Below, one piece after another: positions 9,087 to 19,253 of a stretch of DNA of 64,000 nucleotides. Position numbers and translations under genes: made by a program. How positions within the stretch are numbered: position 1 is the stretch's first letter; the number at the start of each line of letters is the position of its first letter. The notes under the pieces are model-generated. The model saw only the letters and a list, made by a program, of their open reading frames with translations. It had not been told where the DNA came from and did no database searches. Source of the stretch: an uncultured Kiloniellales bacterium (GTDB lineage: Bacteria > Pseudomonadota > Alphaproteobacteria > Kiloniellales > JAKSDN01); contig CAMYKD010000021.1 in assembly GCA_947258885.1 (NCBI GenBank), positions 1 through 64,000 of the forward strand, written 5' to 3'.

Positions 9087-9575
9087 TCAATTCATGCGGT
9101 ACAGGAAATAGCGTCCCGGACTGACGCCCGCCGGCACCTCGAGCGCTTCGGCCCCGGCAAGATCCAGGGCCTGGTCGGAGATCACCACGCCCCCGGCCAT
9201 CAGCAGCCGAGACAGCTGCCCCGAGATAAACGCCGCGAGTCCCGCATTCGATGCCGTATCGCCCGTGCCCATGTCGGAATGGACCATCGGCACGGTGCGC
9301 CCGAAACGGGCGACCATCCGGGGCAGGGTCTCGTGGATGTCACCCAGCAGGAGGAAGGCTGGATCCGGCACGCAGTCGGGATGGGCCGCCACTTGACGTT
9401 CGAACACGAAGATCTGGCGATCCGGGCAAAGCTGGCGCAGGTGGTCGTAGGTCCGGCCGTTGCCCAGGCCGAGCTCGCAGATCGGGCCGTTCAGGTCGCG
9501 AACAAGGGCCACGGCCCGCTCCAGGCACGCGCGTTGCGCCTCGAGGCGGCGAATGAAGCTGTCGAGGCGGCTCAC
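9087..9575 (-). CDS. Class I SAM-dependent methyltransferase-like protein
   Basis: VSRLDSFIRRLEAQRACLERAVALVRDLNGPICELGLGNGRTYDHLRQLCPDRQIFVFER: Rossmann methyltransferase motif I and acidic end of beta2. GTG start inferred at 9575. Confidence 0.7.
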   Translation of the reverse strand: MSRLDSFIRRLEAQRACLERAVALVRDLNGPICELGLGNGRTYDHLRQLCPDRQIFVFERQVAAHPDCVPDPAFLLLGDIHETLPRMVARFGRTVPMVHSDMGTGDTASNAGLAAFISGQLSRLLMAGGVVISDQALDLAGAEALEVPAGVSPGRYFLYRMN

Positions 9576-9586
9576 CGACCCACCTT

Positions 9587-10042
9587 TCAGTCCTTGGCGC
9601 CGGCGCGCGCTTCGCGGAGCTGCGCCGTCGTCTGCTCCAGGCGATGGGCAAGCACGCGCATGATCTCCACGCCCATCTCCGGGAAGTCCAGGATCAACCG
9701 GAAGAACAGGTCCTTGGTCACCTTGAGGGCCACCACCTCGGTACTCGCCGTCACCGTGGCGGTGCGCGGCACGTCGCAGAGGATGGCGATCTCGCCGACG
9801 ATGTCGTTGCGCTTCAACACCGCAACGGCCAGCGGCCCGTCGGGTGTGTCGACCGAGACCTCGGCCTCGCCGTCGACGATGATATAGGCGGCATCCCCGG
9901 GCTCGCCCTGCCGGCACAGCGTCTGGCTGGGTTTGAACGTGAGCCGTTCGCTGGCGAAGCACATGAGTTTCAGCTTCGCCGTCTCGATGTTGGCGAAAAG
10001 CGGAATATGCCGAAGGATCTCGACTTCCTGATCCAGGCTCAT
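9587..10042 (-). CDS. Stand-alone cyclic-nucleotide-binding-domain protein (no DNA-binding domain)
   Basis: MSLDQEVEILRHIPLFANIETAKLKLMCFASERLTFKPSQTLCRQGEPGDAAYIIVDGEAEV...GEIAILCDVPRTATVTA: CNB beta-roll and phosphate-binding cassette; ORF ends without an HTH. Confidence 0.9.
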   Translation of the reverse strand: MSLDQEVEILRHIPLFANIETAKLKLMCFASERLTFKPSQTLCRQGEPGDAAYIIVDGEAEVSVDTPDGPLAVAVLKRNDIVGEIAILCDVPRTATVTASTEVVALKVTKDLFFRLILDFPEMGVEIMRVLAHRLEQTTAQLREARAGAKD

Positions 10043-10067: not shown

Positions 10068-12743
10068 TCAACCGGCGGCCACGAGTTCCTGCTCGACCAG
10101 GCGCCCGGCACGCATGACCAGGACCCGGTCGAAGAATTCGGCCCACGCCGCCTTCTGCAGCGTCCAGATCACACCGCGGCCTCGACGCGCCTCGAGGAGC
10201 CTCCTTCCGATCTCCCGCTGCGTGGCGCTGTCCATGACCGCCGCGGCTTCGTTTATGATCAGAAGGTCGGGCTCCTTCAACAGCGCGCGGCCAATGGCCA
10301 GCTTCTGTCGCTGAATGCTCGTCAGCCGCCGGCCGCCGACGCCGACCTGATAGTCCAGGCCCACGGCGAGCACGATCCGCCTGAGTTCGAGGCTGTCGAG
10401 CGCCTCGGTCACGGCTTGGCCGACGATCTCTTTCGCGTGGGCCTTGCCGTAGGCGAGGCGGCCGAACAGGATATTGTCCTGCAGCGAGGCGGCGGCGTTG
10501 TAGCTGTCCGGCCGGTAGAACTCGACGGCACCGGGATCGTCCCGCTCCAGCCGTTCGGCGACCCGGCGCCGCGCCGCCAGAATCCTCCCCCCCCGGGCTT
10601 CGTCGATCAAGCCCAGGCGATGGCGGGATTCCACATATTTGAAGGGCAGTCGCCGGAGCTTCAACTGCTCGGCCTCGGGCAGGGCCTCGGGACCGATCTT
10701 CTCCGCGCGCGCCACGAGCGCGCGATATTCCGGTAGCTCGTCCTCGTCGATGAAGCCGAACTGTTCGAAGAACGGGTGGCCGGCCGGCAGGTCGCCGAGC
10801 AACTCGACCATGGTCTTGGCGATCGTCTCGCCCATCCTGAGCACGTTGCCAAGGGCCCCCTCTTCGCGCAGGAACCTCAGGACCAGGGGATTTTCCGCCA
10901 GCGCCTCGTCGGTGAACTCCGGCTTGGTCGGGGTTCCGAAGAGCAGGTTCTCAGCAAGCGTGGCATTGGGGTTGTAGCGCTCGGGGTCGAAGCGCACCAC
11001 GAGATCGCTCGCCCCTTCCTCGGCCAAGCTGTCGATCAGGGCGGCGCGCGCGCGCAGTATCCCCTCTGCGACGTCGGGGCGCGCCCGGGGATCTATCGTG
11101 CCGGTCAGGCCGAAGCGGTAGAGGTCCTCGTCCATATCCACCAGCGAGAGGGCCTCGATCATCTTCTCCTGCAGGCCCTTCGCGTCCTCGACACCCGCGG
11201 CGGCGTAATCGATCCAGTCGGCCTCCGGATCCAGTGTCGTGTTGCCGGCCCGCCGGCTTTCCGCAACCTGCCGCGCCTTGAGTTTGCGCTGGCCGGCGTC
11301 GAGGGCGGGCTCTTTGAGGGGGCGATGCTTCAGGCCGTAGAGCAGATTGTCGCCGACCGAGACCGGGAACAGATAGGCGTCCTGGCCGACATAGGAGATC
11401 CGCCGGCCGGTCACGGCCTCCGGCAGGTCGTGGAGGTCGCGCCCTCCCACCGTGATCGATCCGGCGCCCGGCCGTGCCAGATTGGCCAACAGCATGCCCA
11501 AGTGTTCCTTGCCGCTGCTGCTGTTGCCGACGATGGCCAGGTGGGCGGTCACGGGAATCGTGAAGTTGACGGAATCGACCAGCTTGGTGTTGGTTTCGTC
11601 GACGAGGCTGACCGCGGCGCAAACGATGTCGCCGCCGAGCGGCGGGCCTGGGTCGGCGGCCACGTCTTGCCGTACCGGATCGAGCATCTCCGGCGGCTGG
11701 AACTGCCCGATCACCTGATCGTACTTGATCTGCACGTCCAGGCGCCGCTGGTCCCAATCGATGAGCTCCTTGATCGGCCCGGGCAGGTCCTTGTAGGCGG
11801 CGATCACGGCGACCAGCGCACCGATGTCGAGCCGGCCCCAGTACGCGAGCATGCCGCCTACGGAATAGAAGAAGAAAGGGGTGAGCTGAGCCAGGAGGTT
11901 GTTCAGGAACTTGACGAAGAATTTCCGCTGATAGATCTCGAAGCGGATACGGAATATGTGGCCGACTCGCGAGGCGATATCGGCGCGTTCCAGATTTGAC
12001 GTGTCGTGAGCATGGATCTCCACCGCGCCATCGACCAGCTCGCCAATTCGACCGGCCAGCTGCCGGGCCGTCAGCTGACGCTCCTTGCCGAGACTGAGGA
12101 TGCGCTTGCGCAGCATGGGGATAAGGACGGCCTGCACGGCGACAATAGTGGACGCGGCCAGGCCGAGCCACAAGCTCTGCAACATGATGAAGAACATGGC
12201 GGTGAGGGCCTGGCCGCCGAGAAATACCGGGGTCACGAAGGCATCGCCGATGAAGCCGCCGAGTGGCTCGACCTCGTCCTTGATCATGGTGGCGATCTCG
12301 GCCTGCTTGACCTTGCGGGAGTAGGGGATCGGAAAGCGGAGGATCCGGTCGGTCAACTCGTACCGCAGCCGGCGCAGCATGCGTTCGCCCATACGGCCCT
12401 TCAAGGTGTTGATGACGAACTTGAACATGCCGTTGACGAGCACGAAACCGAGGAAGGCAAAGCTGAGCGCAAGCAGGTAATCGCCCTGCTCCAGCTGGAA
12501 ACCGTCGAACAACCTGGCCGGCCCAGCTGCCGTATCCCCGCCGAACGGCCGGTCGAATTCGAGGAACGGCTGGGTCGACCCCGCGCCTTCGAAGCCTTCG
12601 CCTTGGATCCCCTTGTTGACGATCGACTTGGGCAGATCGAGGGAGACGAAATAGAATGGCAGGGAGATCAGCACGAGGAACAGGATCGCCACCTGCTCGC
12701 GCTTGCTGTGCCGCCAGACGTATTTGAAGAGTTTCGGTTCCAT
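10068..12743 (-). CDS. ABC exporter-like fusion (membrane domain plus highly degenerate NBD with a large insertion)
   Basis: TM segments (VAILFLVLISLPFYFVSL, YLLALSFAFLGFVLVNGMF, LGGQALTAMFFIMLQSLWLGLAAS); NBD motifs GNSSSGKEH, SYVGQDAYLF, LTSIQRQKLAIGRALL, PDLLIINEAAAVMD. Confidence 0.85.
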   Translation of the reverse strand: MEPKLFKYVWRHSKREQVAILFLVLISLPFYFVSLDLPKSIVNKGIQGEGFEGAGSTQPFLEFDRPFGGDTAAGPARLFDGFQLEQGDYLLALSFAFLGFVLVNGMFKFVINTLKGRMGERMLRRLRYELTDRILRFPIPYSRKVKQAEIATMIKDEVEPLGGFIGDAFVTPVFLGGQALTAMFFIMLQSLWLGLAASTIVAVQAVLIPMLRKRILSLGKERQLTARQLAGRIGELVDGAVEIHAHDTSNLERADIASRVGHIFRIRFEIYQRKFFVKFLNNLLAQLTPFFFYSVGGMLAYWGRLDIGALVAVIAAYKDLPGPIKELIDWDQRRLDVQIKYDQVIGQFQPPEMLDPVRQDVAADPGPPLGGDIVCAAVSLVDETNTKLVDSVNFTIPVTAHLAIVGNSSSGKEHLGMLLANLARPGAGSITVGGRDLHDLPEAVTGRRISYVGQDAYLFPVSVGDNLLYGLKHRPLKEPALDAGQRKLKARQVAESRRAGNTTLDPEADWIDYAAAGVEDAKGLQEKMIEALSLVDMDEDLYRFGLTGTIDPRARPDVAEGILRARAALIDSLAEEGASDLVVRFDPERYNPNATLAENLLFGTPTKPEFTDEALAENPLVLRFLREEGALGNVLRMGETIAKTMVELLGDLPAGHPFFEQFGFIDEDELPEYRALVARAEKIGPEALPEAEQLKLRRLPFKYVESRHRLGLIDEARGGRILAARRRVAERLERDDPGAVEFYRPDSYNAAASLQDNILFGRLAYGKAHAKEIVGQAVTEALDSLELRRIVLAVGLDYQVGVGGRRLTSIQRQKLAIGRALLKEPDLLIINEAAAVMDSATQREIGRRLLEARRGRGVIWTLQKAAWAEFFDRVLVMRAGRLVEQELVAAG

Positions 12744-12944
12744 GGAAAACCGGATGATCGCGCCCCACTCGAGATGACCGGATCCGCCGCGGTCGAGCCA
12801 CATTAACCAATGGACCCTGGCGCGTAAACGCAGCTGCGCCGGCACCGCTCCGGGCCGATATAGACTATTTTCACATCCTGGAAACCTGTGGCATGATCCG
12901 GGCTCTTGCAGGAGAGGGTTTCCGGGAAATTCAGGGGTTTTTGC

Positions 12945-14192
12945 ATGGCCGGGGTCCGCAGGGACAAGCGGGTGCTGATATACAGCCACGACAGCTTCGG
13001 TCTCGGCCACCTGCGCCGTTGCCGCGAAATCGCGCACGCGCTGGTCGAGGCCGAGCAGGATCTCTCGGTCCTGATACTCTCGGGATCGCCGATCATCGGG
13101 AGCTTCGACTTCCGGGCCCGGGTCGACTTCGTGCGCGTGCCCGGAGTGATCAAGCTGCGAAACGGGGACTACACCTCGCTCGCCCTCCACATCGACGTAG
13201 AACATACAATGGCCATGCGGACCTCGATCATCGAGCACACGGCCAAGATCTACGACCCGGACCTGTTTCTTGTCGACAAGGAGCCGCTCGGGCTGCGCGG
13301 CGAGGCGGAAAATACCCTTGCCATGCTGAATGCGCGGGGCACGCCCTGCATCCTGGGCCTGCGCGACGTGATGGACGAGCCGGCGCGGCTGGTCCCGGAG
13401 TGGGAGCGCAAACAAGCCGTTCCGGCCCTGATGAACTATTACCACGATATCTGGGTCTATGGACTGCCGCAGGTCTACGACCCTCTCGAAGGCGTGGCCA
13501 TGGCCGATTCGGTACGCCGGAAGGTGACCTACACGGGCTACTTGCCGCGCAGCGTACCGCAGGCCGCGCCGGGGCTGACCCTCGAGAAGATCGACGAGCC
13601 CTACCTGCTGATCACCGTCGGCGGCGGCGGCGACGGCGAGCAGATCGTCGATTGGGTGCTGCGTGCCTACGAAAGCGACCCGGACATACCCTACCCGGCG
13701 CTCCTGGTGCTTGGACCCTTCATGGCCTCCGACCTCCAGAACGAGTTCCTGCAGCGGGCAAGCCAGCTGCCCCGGATCGAAGCGATTACCTTCGAGGCCC
13801 GCCTCGAAAGCCTCATGGAGCGCGCGCTGGGCGTGGTCTGCATGGGCGGCTACAACACCTTTTGCGAGATCCTGTCGTTCAACAAGCGGGCGCTGGTGGT
13901 GCCCCGCACCGAGCCGAGAATGGAGCAGTACATCCGCGCCACCCGGGCCGCACAGCTGGGTCTGGTCAGCGTTCTTCCCGACGACGGCCGCCGCGAGGCC
14001 CAGGTCATGGCGACGGCCCTGCGCACGCTGCCGCAGCAATCCCCGCCCAGCGAAACAGTCGTGCCGGGCCTGCTCGACGGCCGGGACAATGTGATCAAGC
14101 TCGCCCGGCAGTGGCTGCGCCGCCGGCGGCGCGGCCTCAGCGTGGCGAGCATGGTCGCAAACTCCCGCGCCGCTTTGCGCCTCGGGCGCTAA
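12945..14192 (+). CDS. Predicted glycosyltransferase (GT28/MurG-like, COG4671-type)
   Basis: RVLIYSHDSFGLGHLRRCREIAHAL...DLFLVDKEPLGLRGE...VCMGGYNTFCEILSFNKRALVVPRTEPRMEQYIRA. ATG at 12945. Confidence 0.85.
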   Translation: MAGVRRDKRVLIYSHDSFGLGHLRRCREIAHALVEAEQDLSVLILSGSPIIGSFDFRARVDFVRVPGVIKLRNGDYTSLALHIDVEHTMAMRTSIIEHTAKIYDPDLFLVDKEPLGLRGEAENTLAMLNARGTPCILGLRDVMDEPARLVPEWERKQAVPALMNYYHDIWVYGLPQVYDPLEGVAMADSVRRKVTYTGYLPRSVPQAAPGLTLEKIDEPYLLITVGGGGDGEQIVDWVLRAYESDPDIPYPALLVLGPFMASDLQNEFLQRASQLPRIEAITFEARLESLMERALGVVCMGGYNTFCEILSFNKRALVVPRTEPRMEQYIRATRAAQLGLVSVLPDDGRREAQVMATALRTLPQQSPPSETVVPGLLDGRDNVIKLARQWLRRRRRGLSVASMVANSRAALRLGR

Positions 14193-14256
14193 CCGCGCGA
14201 TTCTGGACCAGGCCATGAGCTTGACGGCCGGCCGGTCGGCTCTCTAACGTCGAGCC

Positions 14257-15540
14257 ATGCCTGGGATCTCTCCCGCCAAGGACCCTTGTCACATATCGCC
14301 CTGCGTCGCGGTCGTGTTGAAGGGCTATCCTCGCCTGTCGGAAACCTTCATCGCCCAGGAAATCCGGGCCCTGGAGCAGGGCGGCTTGAACCTGCGGATC
14401 TATTCGCTGCGGCACCCCACCGATCCCGCTACTCATCCTGTCCATCGCGAGATCGTTTCGCCGGTGAGCTATCTCCCGGAGTACTTGCACCAGGAGCCCC
14501 TTAGGGTGTACCGCGCCTGGCGCAGGGCCCGCCGTCTGCCCCGCTACCAGCAAGCCTTCCGGACCTGGCTCGGGGATTTGCGCCGGGATTTCACGCGCAA
14601 CCGGGTGCGGCGGTTCGGCCAGGCTTGTGTCCTGGCCGCAGAGCTGCCGGCCGACGCCACCCGGCTGCACGCGCATTTCTTGCACACGCCGGCCTCGGTC
14701 GCCCGCTATGCCGGCTTGATGACCGGTCTGCCGTGGTCCTGTTCGGCCCATGCCAAGGACATCTGGACCACGCCCGCCTGGGAGAAACGGGAAAAGCTCG
14801 CGGAACTCGACTGGCTGGTCACCTGTACCGCGGTCGGACGTGATCACCTCGCCGGGCTGGCGCCTGATCCGGGCCGGGTCCGCCTGATCTACCATGGCCT
14901 GGACTTCGACCGCTGGCCGCGGCCGCCGGAACTGCGCCCCGCCCGGGACGGGTCACTGCCGGACGATCCGGTGGTTCTGCTCTCGGTCGGCAGGGCGGTC
15001 GAGAAGAAGGGTTATGAAGACCTTCTGGCGGCTCTTGCGCTTCTGCCCGCGCCGCTTCACTGGCGCCTGATACACATCGGTGGCGGCACATTGGCTCCGC
15101 GCCTGCGCGCGCGGGCCGAGGCCCTCGGTTTGGCCCCGCGCCTGACCTGGCTCGGCGCCCAGCCGCAGGAGGCCGTGCTCCGCAACTACCGCAGCGCGGA
15201 TCTTTTCGTCCTGGCCAGCCGCGTGGCCGCGGACGGCGACCGCGACGGCCTGCCCAACGTCCTGATGGAGGCCCAGAGCCAGGGCTTGGCTTGCCTCGCC
15301 ACGCGTGTTTCGGCAATACCCGAGCTGATCGAAGACGGGGTCAACGGCGTGCTCGCCGAGGCCGGCGACCCGGTGGCGCTCGCCGCCGCCCTCGACCACT
15401 TGATCCGGAACCCGGCGGCCCGCGCAGCCTTGGGCGCGGCCGGCACGATACGGGTCCGCGAGCGCTTTTCCATGGCCGGGGGCATCGCGGTCTTGGCCGA
15501 GAGCCTCGCCTCGACCGCACCGGCCCGCGCTACGCTCTAG
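14257..15540 (+). CDS. Glycosyltransferase family 4
   Basis: VVLKGYPRLSETFIAQEIRALEQ; VVLLSVGRAVEKKGYEDLLAAL; VAADGDRDGLPNVLMEAQSQGLACLATRVSAIPELIEDGVNG: GT4 E-x7-E motif region. Confidence 0.92.
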   Translation: MPGISPAKDPCHISPCVAVVLKGYPRLSETFIAQEIRALEQGGLNLRIYSLRHPTDPATHPVHREIVSPVSYLPEYLHQEPLRVYRAWRRARRLPRYQQAFRTWLGDLRRDFTRNRVRRFGQACVLAAELPADATRLHAHFLHTPASVARYAGLMTGLPWSCSAHAKDIWTTPAWEKREKLAELDWLVTCTAVGRDHLAGLAPDPGRVRLIYHGLDFDRWPRPPELRPARDGSLPDDPVVLLSVGRAVEKKGYEDLLAALALLPAPLHWRLIHIGGGTLAPRLRARAEALGLAPRLTWLGAQPQEAVLRNYRSADLFVLASRVAADGDRDGLPNVLMEAQSQGLACLATRVSAIPELIEDGVNGVLAEAGDPVALAAALDHLIRNPAARAALGAAGTIRVRERFSMAGGIAVLAESLASTAPARATL

Positions 15541-15548
15541 GTAAGATC

Positions 15549-16685
15549 ATGCGCGTAGCCTTTTACGCACCGATGAAACCGCCCGACCATCCGGTACCCT
15601 CGGGCGACCGGCGCATGGCGGGCCTGCTGATGGAGGCGCTGTCGCTGGCCGGCCATGAGGTCGAGCTGTCCAGCCGGCTGAGAAGCCGCGACGGCACCGG
15701 TGACCTCCTGCGCCAAGCGCGCCTCGAGTCGCTAGGCGCCGCGTTGGGGCGTCGCCTCCTGCGACGCATCGAAACACGGCCGGCTAGTGAGCGCCCCGCT
15801 GCGTGGCTGACCTACCATCTCTATTACAAGGCCCCCGACTGGATCGGTCCGGCGGTCTGCGAGGCGCTCGCCATCCCCTATCTTGTGGCCGAGGCCTCGG
15901 TGGCGGCCAAACGGGCCGGCGGCCCCTGGGACCGGGGCCACCGGGCCACCCTGGACGCCCTGGAGCAGGCCGCCGCGGTCATCGCATTCAACCCCGCGGA
16001 CAGCGAATGCCTGCCGGACCCTCACCGGATCCGCGGGCTCAAGCCTTTCCTGGATCCGATACCGTACCGAACGGCGGCAACCGAAAGACACCGGCACCGC
16101 GCCGCTCTGGCGGCCCGCCTGGGCATGGACCCCGAGCAACCCTGGCTCGCGGCGGTCGCCATGATGCGGCCGGGGGACAAGCTCGCGTCCTACCGTCTGC
16201 TGGCCCGCGCGTTGAACGACCTGAGAGAGACGCCCTGGCAGTTGGTGGTCGCCGGCGACGGTCCCGCGCGCGATCAGGTGACAGCGGCTTTTGCCGCGAT
16301 CGGAGGCGACAGGGTCCGCTATGCCGGTGAAATGACCTTGCGGGCCCTGCCGCCGCTCTACGCGGCCTGCGATCTGCTGGTCTGGCCCGCGGTCAACGAG
16401 GCGTACGGCATGGCGCTGCTCGAGGCCCAGGCAAGCGGTCTTCCGGTCGTCGCCGGGGCGAGCGGCGGCGTATCGGAGATCGTGCGTCACGACGTGACGG
16501 GCCTGCTGGCCGCAGCCGGCGAAGCGGACGCTTTCGCGGCCGCCGTGCGCGGCCTTCTCGGGGATCGGGCGCGCCGGCGACGCATGGCTGCGGCGGCACT
16601 GGAGGTGGTCGGGGCGGAGCACGGACTCGCGGCCACGGCGAGGAGGCTCGACGCGATCCTTGCCGAGGCGGTGGCACCGGCATGA
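15549..16685 (+). CDS. Glycosyltransferase family 4
   Basis: MRVAFYAPMKPPDHPVPSGDRRMAGLLMEAL; VWPAVNEAYGMALLEAQASGLPVVAGASGGVSEIVRHDVTGLL. Confidence 0.9.
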   Translation: MRVAFYAPMKPPDHPVPSGDRRMAGLLMEALSLAGHEVELSSRLRSRDGTGDLLRQARLESLGAALGRRLLRRIETRPASERPAAWLTYHLYYKAPDWIGPAVCEALAIPYLVAEASVAAKRAGGPWDRGHRATLDALEQAAAVIAFNPADSECLPDPHRIRGLKPFLDPIPYRTAATERHRHRAALAARLGMDPEQPWLAAVAMMRPGDKLASYRLLARALNDLRETPWQLVVAGDGPARDQVTAAFAAIGGDRVRYAGEMTLRALPPLYAACDLLVWPAVNEAYGMALLEAQASGLPVVAGASGGVSEIVRHDVTGLLAAAGEADAFAAAVRGLLGDRARRRRMAAAALEVVGAEHGLAATARRLDAILAEAVAPA

Positions 16686-17281
16686 CATCGCGCCCCGTTC
16701 CGCTGGTCGTGCTGCGCCACGGCCCGACCGATTGGAACGCCGAGAGGCGTATTCAAGGCCGCAGCGACCGGCCGCTGAGCAAAGCCGGGCGGGCGGCGGT
16801 GCGGCGTTGGAGCCTGCCGGTCGAGTGCTCCGGCTACGACTGGATCACGAGTCCGCTGCTCCGCGCAAGAGAGACCGCGGCCCTGATGGGCCATGACGAT
16901 GCGGTGATCGAGTCGTCGCTCATCGAGACCGACTGGGGCCAGTGGGAGGGACAGACCTTGGGCGAGCTGCGCGATCGCTACGGAGTGGAAATGATCGAAA
17001 TGGAGGCCCGGGGCCTCGATTTCCGGCCACCTGGCGGGGAAAGTCCGCGCGACGTACAGGCCCGTTTGGCGCCCTGGCTCACCCGCGTCGCGGCCGGCGG
17101 GCGGCCGTGCGTGGCGGTCTGCCACAAGGGGGTGGTTCGCGCCCTCGCCGCGCTGGCCAGCGGCTGGGACATGACCGGGCCGCCGCCCGAAAAGCTGCGC
17201 GACGCCACGGCCCACCGTTTCGTGGTGGACACCGGCGGCACACCGGTCGTCGGTCGGCTGAACCTTCCTCTCGTGTCATGA
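16682..17281 (+). CDS. Histidine phosphatase family protein
   Basis: LVVLRHGPTDWNAERRIQGRSDRPLS (RHG motif), ITSPLLRARETAALM, CVAVCHKGVVRALAA. 4-nt ATGA overlap with the upstream gene. Confidence 0.92.
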   Translation: MTSRPVPLVVLRHGPTDWNAERRIQGRSDRPLSKAGRAAVRRWSLPVECSGYDWITSPLLRARETAALMGHDDAVIESSLIETDWGQWEGQTLGELRDRYGVEMIEMEARGLDFRPPGGESPRDVQARLAPWLTRVAAGGRPCVAVCHKGVVRALAALASGWDMTGPPPEKLRDATAHRFVVDTGGTPVVGRLNLPLVS

Positions 17282-18447
17282 CCCAATCCGCCGACATCCT
17301 GTTCTACGTCCAGCACCTGCTCGGCATCGGCCACCTGCGGCGTGCCGCCCTGATCGCCAAGGCCGTGGACCGGGCCGGGATGTCTGTGGTCTTTGTCTCC
17401 GGCGGCATGCCGGTACCGGGGCTGGACATCGGCGGCGCGGCCTTCGTGCAACTGCCGCCCCTGCGCTCGGCCGACCAGTATTTCTCGACCTTGGTCGACA
17501 CCGCGGGCCGCCCGATCGATAATGCGTGGCGCGACGCGCGGCGCGACCGCCTGCTAGCCCTGCTCGAGGCGGTGCGGCCCCGGCTGCTGCTCACCGAGAT
17601 GTTCCCCTTCGGCCGCCGTCAGCTGCGTTTCGAGCTGAATCCCTTGCTAGAGGCCGCGCGCGCCCGCAGGCCAAGGCCCCTGGTCGTGTCTTCGGTGCGC
17701 GATGTCATCAACCGGCCGGACAAGCCCGGCAAGGCCGCCTGGATCGTCGAAACCCTACGGCGCCAGTTCGACCGGATCCTGGTGCACGGGGACCCGTCAT
17801 TGCTGACCCTGGAGACCAGCTTTCCCGAAGCCGCGCAAATCGCTGGCATGCTCGACTACACGGGCTATGTGGTGAGCCCGCCCCCGGAGTCGACGGACGC
17901 AACCGGCGAGGGCGCCGGCGAAGTGCTGGTCTCGACCGGTGGCGGCGCGGTCGCCGAGCCCATGATCGACGCGGTGCTGGCCGCGCGGCCCCTGACCACG
18001 CTGAAGACCCGCGCATGGCGGATCCTTGCGGGTCACAACCTTCCCGAGGCGACTTTTGGCGCCTACCGAAAGCGGGCCGGGGACGGCGTGATCCTCGAGC
18101 GCGCGCGGCCCGATTTTCTCGACCTTCTGGCCCGCGCGGGGCTTTCGATCAGTCAGGCCGGCTACAACACGGTCATGGAAGTCCTGGCCGCCGGCCCGCC
18201 GGCCGTCGTGGTGCCCTTCGCGGGCGGCGCCGAGACCGAGCAGTCCCTGCGCGCCGGCCTGCTGGCGGAGCGCGGGCTGCTTACCGTGGTCGAGGAGGCG
18301 GGGCTGGACGGTCCCGCTCTGGCCGCAGGCATCGACCGGGCCCTGGCAGGGAGCGGCGCGACGCGCCCCTCGGTCGCCCTGGCAACAGACGGGGCCGCGA
18401 GGACGGCAGACATACTCGCCCGCATGCTTGCTATAGTGGCCGCGTGA
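17278..18447 (+). CDS. Predicted glycosyltransferase (GT28/MurG-like, COG4671-type), paralog of 12945-14192
   Basis: DILFYVQHLLGIGHLRRAALIAKAVDRAG...LSISQAGYNTVMEVLAAGPPAVVVPFAGGAETEQSLRAGLLAERG. Confidence 0.88.
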   Translation: MTQSADILFYVQHLLGIGHLRRAALIAKAVDRAGMSVVFVSGGMPVPGLDIGGAAFVQLPPLRSADQYFSTLVDTAGRPIDNAWRDARRDRLLALLEAVRPRLLLTEMFPFGRRQLRFELNPLLEAARARRPRPLVVSSVRDVINRPDKPGKAAWIVETLRRQFDRILVHGDPSLLTLETSFPEAAQIAGMLDYTGYVVSPPPESTDATGEGAGEVLVSTGGGAVAEPMIDAVLAARPLTTLKTRAWRILAGHNLPEATFGAYRKRAGDGVILERARPDFLDLLARAGLSISQAGYNTVMEVLAAGPPAVVVPFAGGAETEQSLRAGLLAERGLLTVVEEAGLDGPALAAGIDRALAGSGATRPSVALATDGAARTADILARMLAIVAA

Positions 18448-19253
18448 CGAGTTGGCGCGAATTCGAGCAGGAGTTGGATACCTGGGCCGAGGCCGGGTCG
18501 AGCGCGACCTTCTGGTGGCGCGACGACGACGCGGTCGAGCCCACGGCGGCCCTGGACCGTTTGCTGGCCCTTGCCGCCGCCCAAGAAGTTCCCGTCGCGG
18601 CGGCAGTCGTTCCGGGGCGCGGCTGTGCCGCTCTGGGCCGCCGCCTCGCCGCGGCGGCCGATATAGCGACCCCGCTGCAGCACGGCTATCTCCACCGCAA
18701 TTACGCGCCGGCCGGCGAGAGGAAGGTGGAGCTCGGGGGCCACCGGCCCAGCGCGCGAATCTGCGAGGAGTTGATGCGCGGCGCCGCACGGATGGCTGCG
18801 ATTTTCGGACCCGGGGCCCTGCCGGCGCTGGTGCCGCCCTGGAACCGGATCGCGCCCGAGCTGATCCCGATGCTGCCTGAACTCGGCCTGACCGGGCTGT
18901 CGACCTACGGCGCGCGCCAAGTATCCGCACCGGCCCCGGGCCTGACCCAGGCCAACACCCACGTCGACATCATGCGCTGGGATTCGCCGCGGGGCTTTCT
19001 GGGCGAATCCGAAGCGCTCGGCCTGTTCCGGGGCCATCTGGAGGCCCGGCGGCGCGCGGGCACCGGCCGCGCCGGTGCGGATCCGACGGAGCCGACCGGC
19101 CTGCTGACCCACCACCTGGCCCACGACGAGCCCACCTGGGAATTTCTCGAGCGCCTGCTGCCGTTGCTGGCCCGGCATCCCGCCGCTCGTGCGATACCAG
19201 TTTCCGACGTTTTCAACACCATGCCGAGCAGCGTCAGCGAGGGGTCGACTTGA
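18444..19253 (+). CDS. Polysaccharide deacetylase-like protein
   Basis: SSATFWWRDDDAVEPTAALDRLLALAAAQEVPVAAAVVP, QHGYLHRNYAP, LVPPWNRIAPELIPMLPELGLTGLSTYG: NodB-homology-like DD and H positions. GTG start overlapping the previous stop (GTGA). Confidence 0.78.
   Translation: MTSWREFEQELDTWAEAGSSATFWWRDDDAVEPTAALDRLLALAAAQEVPVAAAVVPGRGCAALGRRLAAAADIATPLQHGYLHRNYAPAGERKVELGGHRPSARICEELMRGAARMAAIFGPGALPALVPPWNRIAPELIPMLPELGLTGLSTYGARQVSAPAPGLTQANTHVDIMRWDSPRGFLGESEALGLFRGHLEARRRAGTGRAGADPTEPTGLLTHHLAHDEPTWEFLERLLPLLARHPAARAIPVSDVFNTMPSSVSEGST

Follow-up and report, generated by a model that had tools for sequence, protein, structure and literature searches.

What can an ABC exporter still do when nearly every motif of its ATPase has degenerated? 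By definition, an ABC exporter counts as ATP-driven, and the degenerate examples described so far retain, to our knowledge, one site that works. The question is raised by a gene in a 64,000-nucleotide stretch of DNA from an uncultured Kiloniellales bacterium (GCA_947258885.1, contig CAMYKD010000021.1; the whole stretch is referred to as the window). The gene encodes P0001, an 891-residue half-transporter with the fold of an exporter and with a degenerate Walker A, signature, Walker B Asp, and H-loop. Here, we describe P0001, its family in Pseudomonadota, the genes that accompany it, and a model for its function.

P0001 has the architecture of a type IV exporter

The gene starts with an ATG at position 12743 on the minus strand and runs without an internal stop, in agreement with the uninterrupted frame of 891 codons given in a preliminary description of the locus. 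In Pfam searches, P0001 matches ABC_membrane (E 2.9e-10) and ABC_tran (E 5.9e-14), the latter split into two pieces. Pfam, AlphaFold2, and Foldseek support the architecture of a type IV (ABCB/MsbA-like) ABC exporter, in which a six-helix membrane domain bearing coupling helices precedes the NBD. Among solved structures, the closest ones belong to ordinary exporters of this type. The exporter-type membrane domain, which had been proposed earlier, is borne out by the Pfam match and by the helices in the AlphaFold2 model of the whole protein (mean pLDDT 86.2); in alignments, it is the best-conserved part across the family. No NCBIfam equivalog was reached; the best match, to MsbA (TIGR02203), scores 171 bits, whereas its cut-off is 602.

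The translation contains all four motif changes of the preliminary description, i.e., those in Walker A, the signature, Walker B, and the H-loop (Table 1). P0001 keeps the Walker A Lys (Lys412), the Glu in the catalytic position (Glu832), and an intact Gln454 in the Q-loop. The order of the NBD elements is retained as in MsbA-type exporters, as had been stated; however, the insertion of ~320 residues that splits the NBD had gone unmentioned. Compared with the gene of a 92%-identical relative (L003), that of P0001 lacks 42 nt by an in-frame deletion at its 3' end (window 10068-10110).

Table 1. Features of the P0001 locus (window coordinates) and loci of NBD-less relatives (coordinates within each locus)
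Feature	Position	Strand	Evidence
Degenerate ABC exporter half-transporter, family member P0001, 891 aa	10068..12743	-	translation, Pfam, alignment, AlphaFold2
Type IV exporter membrane domain, res 1-348	11700..12743	-	Pfam ABC_membrane; AlphaFold2 helices; conservation
Degenerate Walker A GNSSSGKEH, res 406-414, Glu replacing Ser/Thr after Lys	11502..11528	-	translation
Q-loop block A YVGQDAYLFPVSVGDNLLYG, res 451-470	11334..11393	-	alignment
Insertion of ~320 aa, Q-loop to signature, res ~476-795 (approximate boundaries)	10359..11318	-	AlphaFold2
Q-loop-like block B VRFDPERYNPNATLAENLLFGTP, res 583-605	10929..10997	-	hhalign, alignment
Q-loop-like block C VEFYRPDSYNAAASLQDNILFGRL, res 740-763	10455..10526	-	hhalign, alignment
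Degenerate signature LTSIQ, res 807-811	10311..10325	-	translation, family alignment
Walker B/D-loop LLIINEAAAVMD, res 827-838, Asp to Asn831, Glu832 kept	10230..10265	-	translation, alignment
H-loop position, Gln863	10155..10157	-	translation, alignment
Stand-alone cyclic-nucleotide-binding (CNB) protein, 151 aa, no HTH	9587..10042	-	PF00027 E 4.8e-21
CNB phosphate-binding cassette GEIAILCDVPRTAT, canonical Glu and Arg	9755..9796	-	alignment
SAM methyltransferase of the Methyltransf_17 family (PF12692), gene 3 of the tight cluster	9087..9575	-	PF12692 E 1.2e-55
Divergent glycosyltransferase (Glyco_tran_28_C)	12906..14192	+	Pfam
NBD-less relatives	L120:3589-4959, L121:3837-5207, L122:4043-5317, L123:1-1146; also L148, L149, L150, L151, L152, L153

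Loss of the ATPase motifs is shared by the family

When one genome per species was scanned, at least 565 relatives were confirmed, 80 of which were fetched; the survey covered Pseudomonadota, and its counts are of loci, not of independent events. Motifs were counted in 111 family sequences (81 close, 20 divergent, and 10 further ones), i.e., in 119 entries minus eight unrelated long frames, one of which accounted for the sole signature match. Homologs with canonical motifs were sought among these 111 sequences and none was found: a canonical Walker A (GxxGxGK[ST]) and an LSGGQ-type signature each occur in 0 of 111, and hhhDE in at most two. Column statistics, based on 44 representatives with <80% identity, give the same picture. 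The Walker A Lys is present in 19 of the 44; the position after it is Glu or Asp in 32, Ser in five, and Thr in none. The Walker B Asp is found in 12, the Glu in the catalytic position in 16, the H-loop His in four, and the Gln corresponding to Gln454 in nine. Divergent members, e.g., L093 with AIEVPTQSERTAL at this position, have lost Walker A altogether. Because the degeneration recurs in every homolog examined, it is not a matter of chance, and the initial assignment as a candidate pseudo-ATPase holds for the family as a whole.

The family is widespread and maintained. It is carried by 79 of 240 sampled alphaproteobacterial genomes (about one-third of the species sampled), nearly all frames being open, and by betaproteobacterial genomes as well. 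Between close pairs, dN/dS is ~0.08-0.20 over the whole gene and low in each segment, substantiating the earlier suggestion that the ORF is under selection. Altogether, P0001 very probably runs no canonical ABC ATPase cycle, and the conclusion that it is without an ATP-driven pump cycle is well supported. Because P0001 has both the Walker A Lys and the Glu in the catalytic position, each of which is also present in part of the representatives, ATP binding or very slow hydrolysis may persist.

The NBD contains a large insertion with Q-loop-like blocks

AlphaFold2 models the insertion with a pLDDT of mostly 85-97, and a slice of residues 440-812 modelled separately reached 90.5. A Foldseek search of this slice against the PDB gave no match at E <= 0.001, and a profile search with the insertion gave weak matches to the first Q-loop block only. 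Blocks B and C resemble the Q-loop/NI(L)xYG segment, and the regions around them match each other with an hhalign E of 1.4e-12; block A matches B and C only weakly, over a short helical stretch. Thus, a triplication has good support where B and C are concerned and, where A is concerned, is no more than plausible. Residues N599, L601, F602, G603, D756, N757, L759, and G761 are identical in all 44 representatives, while the catalytic positions drift. Invariant blocks next to drifting catalytic sites are the pattern that would be expected of an NBD with a structural or coupling role and without catalysis.

A CNB protein is encoded next to the exporter or fused to it

The CNB gene starts 25 nt past the stop codon of the ABC gene, with the Shine-Dalgarno-like AAGGAGGG ahead of it. 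Its product scores above the PF00027 cut-off and contains the cassette G-E-x-A...R-[TS]-A. The C-terminal HTH of a Crp/Fnr transcription factor was not found in its 151 residues, which match PF00027 only; the label "Crp/Fnr family transcriptional regulator" that a relative bears in CP130053 is, therefore, doubtful. The linkage to the exporter is tight. In all 80 fetched close homologs, a CNB gene lies directly downstream of the ABC gene (median gap ~24 nt). Among the 20 divergent loci, it is adjacent in nine and fused in frame to the C terminus of the ABC protein in ten; for the 10 further loci, these numbers are two and three. Thus, fusions, such as those of L107 and L128, are found at 13 loci, among divergent members, and CNB is fused or adjacent at 104 of 110 full-length loci (not dereplicated). 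Parsimony on a 51-taxon tree requires at least three changes between the adjacent and the fused state, i.e., by fusion or fission. When neighboring genes have fused repeatedly, this is classically taken as evidence that their products form a physical complex. The adjacent CNBs have kept the cassette Arg, preceded by Glu or a conservative Asp. Six full-length loci are without a fused or adjacent CNB, namely L102 and the five of lineage f71 (L124-L127 and L133). At L126, an ORF with a CNB lies ~0.9 kb from the ABC gene. In all five f71 proteins, the membrane domain lies beyond the family profile, and the degenerate NBD and the insertion are still recognizable.

With respect to possible ligands, the source genome has 14 matches to class III cyclases. 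CNB domains can take other ligands, as HetC binds ppGpp and not cAMP (PMC10986499). In Mesorhizobium and relatives and on pSymB of S. meliloti, the ABC and CNB genes have a gene for an adenylate/guanylate cyclase in their vicinity, at a distance of up to several kb (L077, L078, L081, L082; L114:1-94); such nearby genes may hint at a local supply of the signal.

Other neighboring genes are lineage-specific

The methyltransferase gene is present at 52 of 80 loci. Glycosyltransferase neighbors, found at ~55 of 80, are common and not universal, and many betaproteobacterial loci adjoin an oligopeptide-type ABC transporter. All three were considered as clues to function and set aside as lineage-specific. 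In the window, the divergent cluster at 12906-19253 encodes glycosyltransferases together with phosphoglycerate-mutase-like and polysaccharide-deacetylase-like proteins, and it is kept with the exporter in many Alphaproteobacteria. A survey of 101 loci found no canonical partner half-exporter in the conserved neighborhood.

Relatives without an NBD lie next to copper genes

The family profile also matches proteins of ~380-457 residues that consist of the membrane domain alone (L120-L123). Their annotation reads either "ABC transporter transmembrane domain-containing protein" or "ABC transporter ATP-binding protein," the second of which is wrong. Copper genes, i.e., multicopper oxidase CopA or copper oxidase plus CopB and/or a cupredoxin, lie beside the NBD-less gene at eight of nine readable loci (L120, L121, L122, L148, L149, L150, L152, and L153; not L151); among the full-length loci examined, none has such neighbors. 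An example of an NBD-less gene in a copper operon is SPO_RS21695 of Ruegeria pomeroyi DSS-3. From this context of copper-resistance operons, the NBD-less proteins may represent a new copper permease or sensor. Because they exist, the membrane-domain lineage is evidently useful without any NBD, and this weakens explanations that need ATP hydrolysis by the full-length protein.

Discussion

Several lines of evidence favor a composite model for P0001, i.e., a pseudo-ATPase type IV exporter with a regulatory and structural NBD that acts in an obligate complex with CNB as a cyclic-nucleotide-gated permease, channel, or sensor. They comprise the loss of the motifs, purifying selection, the linkage and repeated fusion of CNB, the NBD-less relatives, the retained CNB cassette, the cyclase matches of the source genome, and the invariance of the extra Q-loop-like blocks. 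Judged from these sequence-level data, we give the composite model an even chance of being correct. We suggest that the exporter and CNB would form one complex, with CNB as a separate protein at the P0001 locus and as a fused C-terminal domain in other lineages. Binding of cAMP or cGMP to CNB would be relayed by the remodelled NBD, with its additional coupling-type blocks, to the membrane domain, which would then shift its conformation without ATP hydrolysis and would function either as a permease or channel under ligand gating or as a sensor in the membrane. The preliminary description had proposed a fold repurposed for regulation or passive transport; this proposal gains firmer ground from the CNB, which is obligate or fused, and from the NBD-less relatives. 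A broader proposal is more tentative and, in our estimate, possible at best: that there is an ABC-fold class without ATP hydrolysis, which would comprise permeases or channels gated directly by cyclic nucleotides and an NBD-less sister group moving or sensing copper, and would be a prokaryotic parallel to the CFTR-type conversion, in which an ABC pump became a gated pathway.

Two alternatives compete most seriously with the CNB-gated model: heterodimer formation with a canonical half encoded far away, and a role purely as a membrane receptor. Bacterial exporter pairs with one degenerate site are common (PMC7756269), P0001 has their fold, and ~100 ABC_tran matches are present in the source genome; P0001 could, therefore, be the degenerate half of a pair in which the canonical half is encoded elsewhere, ATP is hydrolyzed at one site, and CNB regulates. 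However, no such half is found in the conserved neighborhood, and NBD-less relatives exist. Moreover, in known heterodimers, the half without catalytic residues generally keeps a usable signature. The P0001 family has lost the signature along with Walker A, the Walker B Asp, and the H-loop, so that both composite sites would be impaired. With the signature gone and no partner linked, we consider a heterodimer unlikely. A non-transporting receptor or regulator with a SUR-like role, which would sense a ligand or lipid and signal via the NBD insertion and CNB, e.g., to the methyltransferase or the glycosyltransferases, is compatible with the CNB partner, the degenerate NBD, and the frequency of these two neighbors. 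Nevertheless, neither neighbor is universal, many betaproteobacterial loci adjoin the oligopeptide-type transporter, and the NBD-less relatives in copper operons suggest that the membrane domain itself handles something; we regard a pure receptor as rather unlikely.

Two further explanations carry less weight. The adjoining glycosyltransferases and the match to MsbA, far under its cut-off as it is, could indicate an ATP-dependent flippase for a glycolipid or polysaccharide with a cryptic but active ATPase. Many members, such as L093, have lost the motifs completely, and the glycosyltransferase context is lineage-specific, making a flippase improbable. The loss of catalytic motifs in a window from a draft assembly of 236 contigs might also suggest a decaying pseudogene or an assembly artefact. 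Yet, motif loss is family-wide, full-length frames are open in nearly all species examined, dN/dS is low, and noncatalytic residues are invariant; strain-specific decay is thereby ruled out, and the likelihood of a pseudogene or artefact is negligible.

With both half-sites lost, strong purifying selection, and linkage to a CNB protein, the family would make a clean natural experiment on whether the membrane domain of an ABC protein can function without ATP, and it could point to a direct target of the alphaproteobacterial class III cyclases, which are many. In current annotations, the exporter gene figures as "ABC transporter ATP-binding protein" and its partner as "Crp/Fnr family transcriptional regulator"; both labels are probably misleading.

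Our search of open-access full text turned up no paper that describes this family or any ABC exporter combining two degenerate sites with a CNB. In the eukaryotic ABCC proteins CFTR and SUR, an ABC fold serves as a gated channel or a regulator that is under cyclic-nucleotide or nucleotide control. Their likeness to the P0001 family is one of concept; CFTR and SUR retain ATP binding and one consensus site, and cAMP reaches CFTR via PKA and not via a direct CNB domain. Homodimeric type IV exporters of the MsbA type (TIGR02203, PDB 3b5w and others) resemble P0001 in the fold of the membrane domain, the order of the NBD elements, and the half-transporter architecture; by contrast, P0001 has degenerate ATPase motifs throughout, the NBD insertion, and a CNB partner. 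The heterodimers TM287/288, TmrAB, BmrCD, TAP, and MsRv1273c/72c share a degenerate NBD with P0001; however, heterodimeric exporters retain one consensus site per dimer (PMC7756269), whereas the P0001 family has lost both motif halves and has no linked partner gene. HetC of Nostoc, a PCAT exporter, is likewise an ABC exporter coupled to a cNMP-type domain, which is N-terminal, essential in vivo, and bound ppGpp rather than cAMP (PMC10986499). Unlike P0001, HetC has an essential catalytic Glu and a C39 peptidase in addition to the N-terminal position of its cNMP domain, and an insertion like that of P0001 is not reported for it (PMC10986499).

MsbA2 of S. meliloti (SMb21191) is a rhizobial exporter encoded near glycosyltransferase genes, as are members of the P0001 family. 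The S. meliloti family member is not MsbA2: it lies at 842-844 kb of pSymB, whereas the msbA2 operon lies near 938 kb (PMC3687685). The CNB gene of this family member adjoins it, and a gene for an adenylate/guanylate cyclase is found ~12 kb away.
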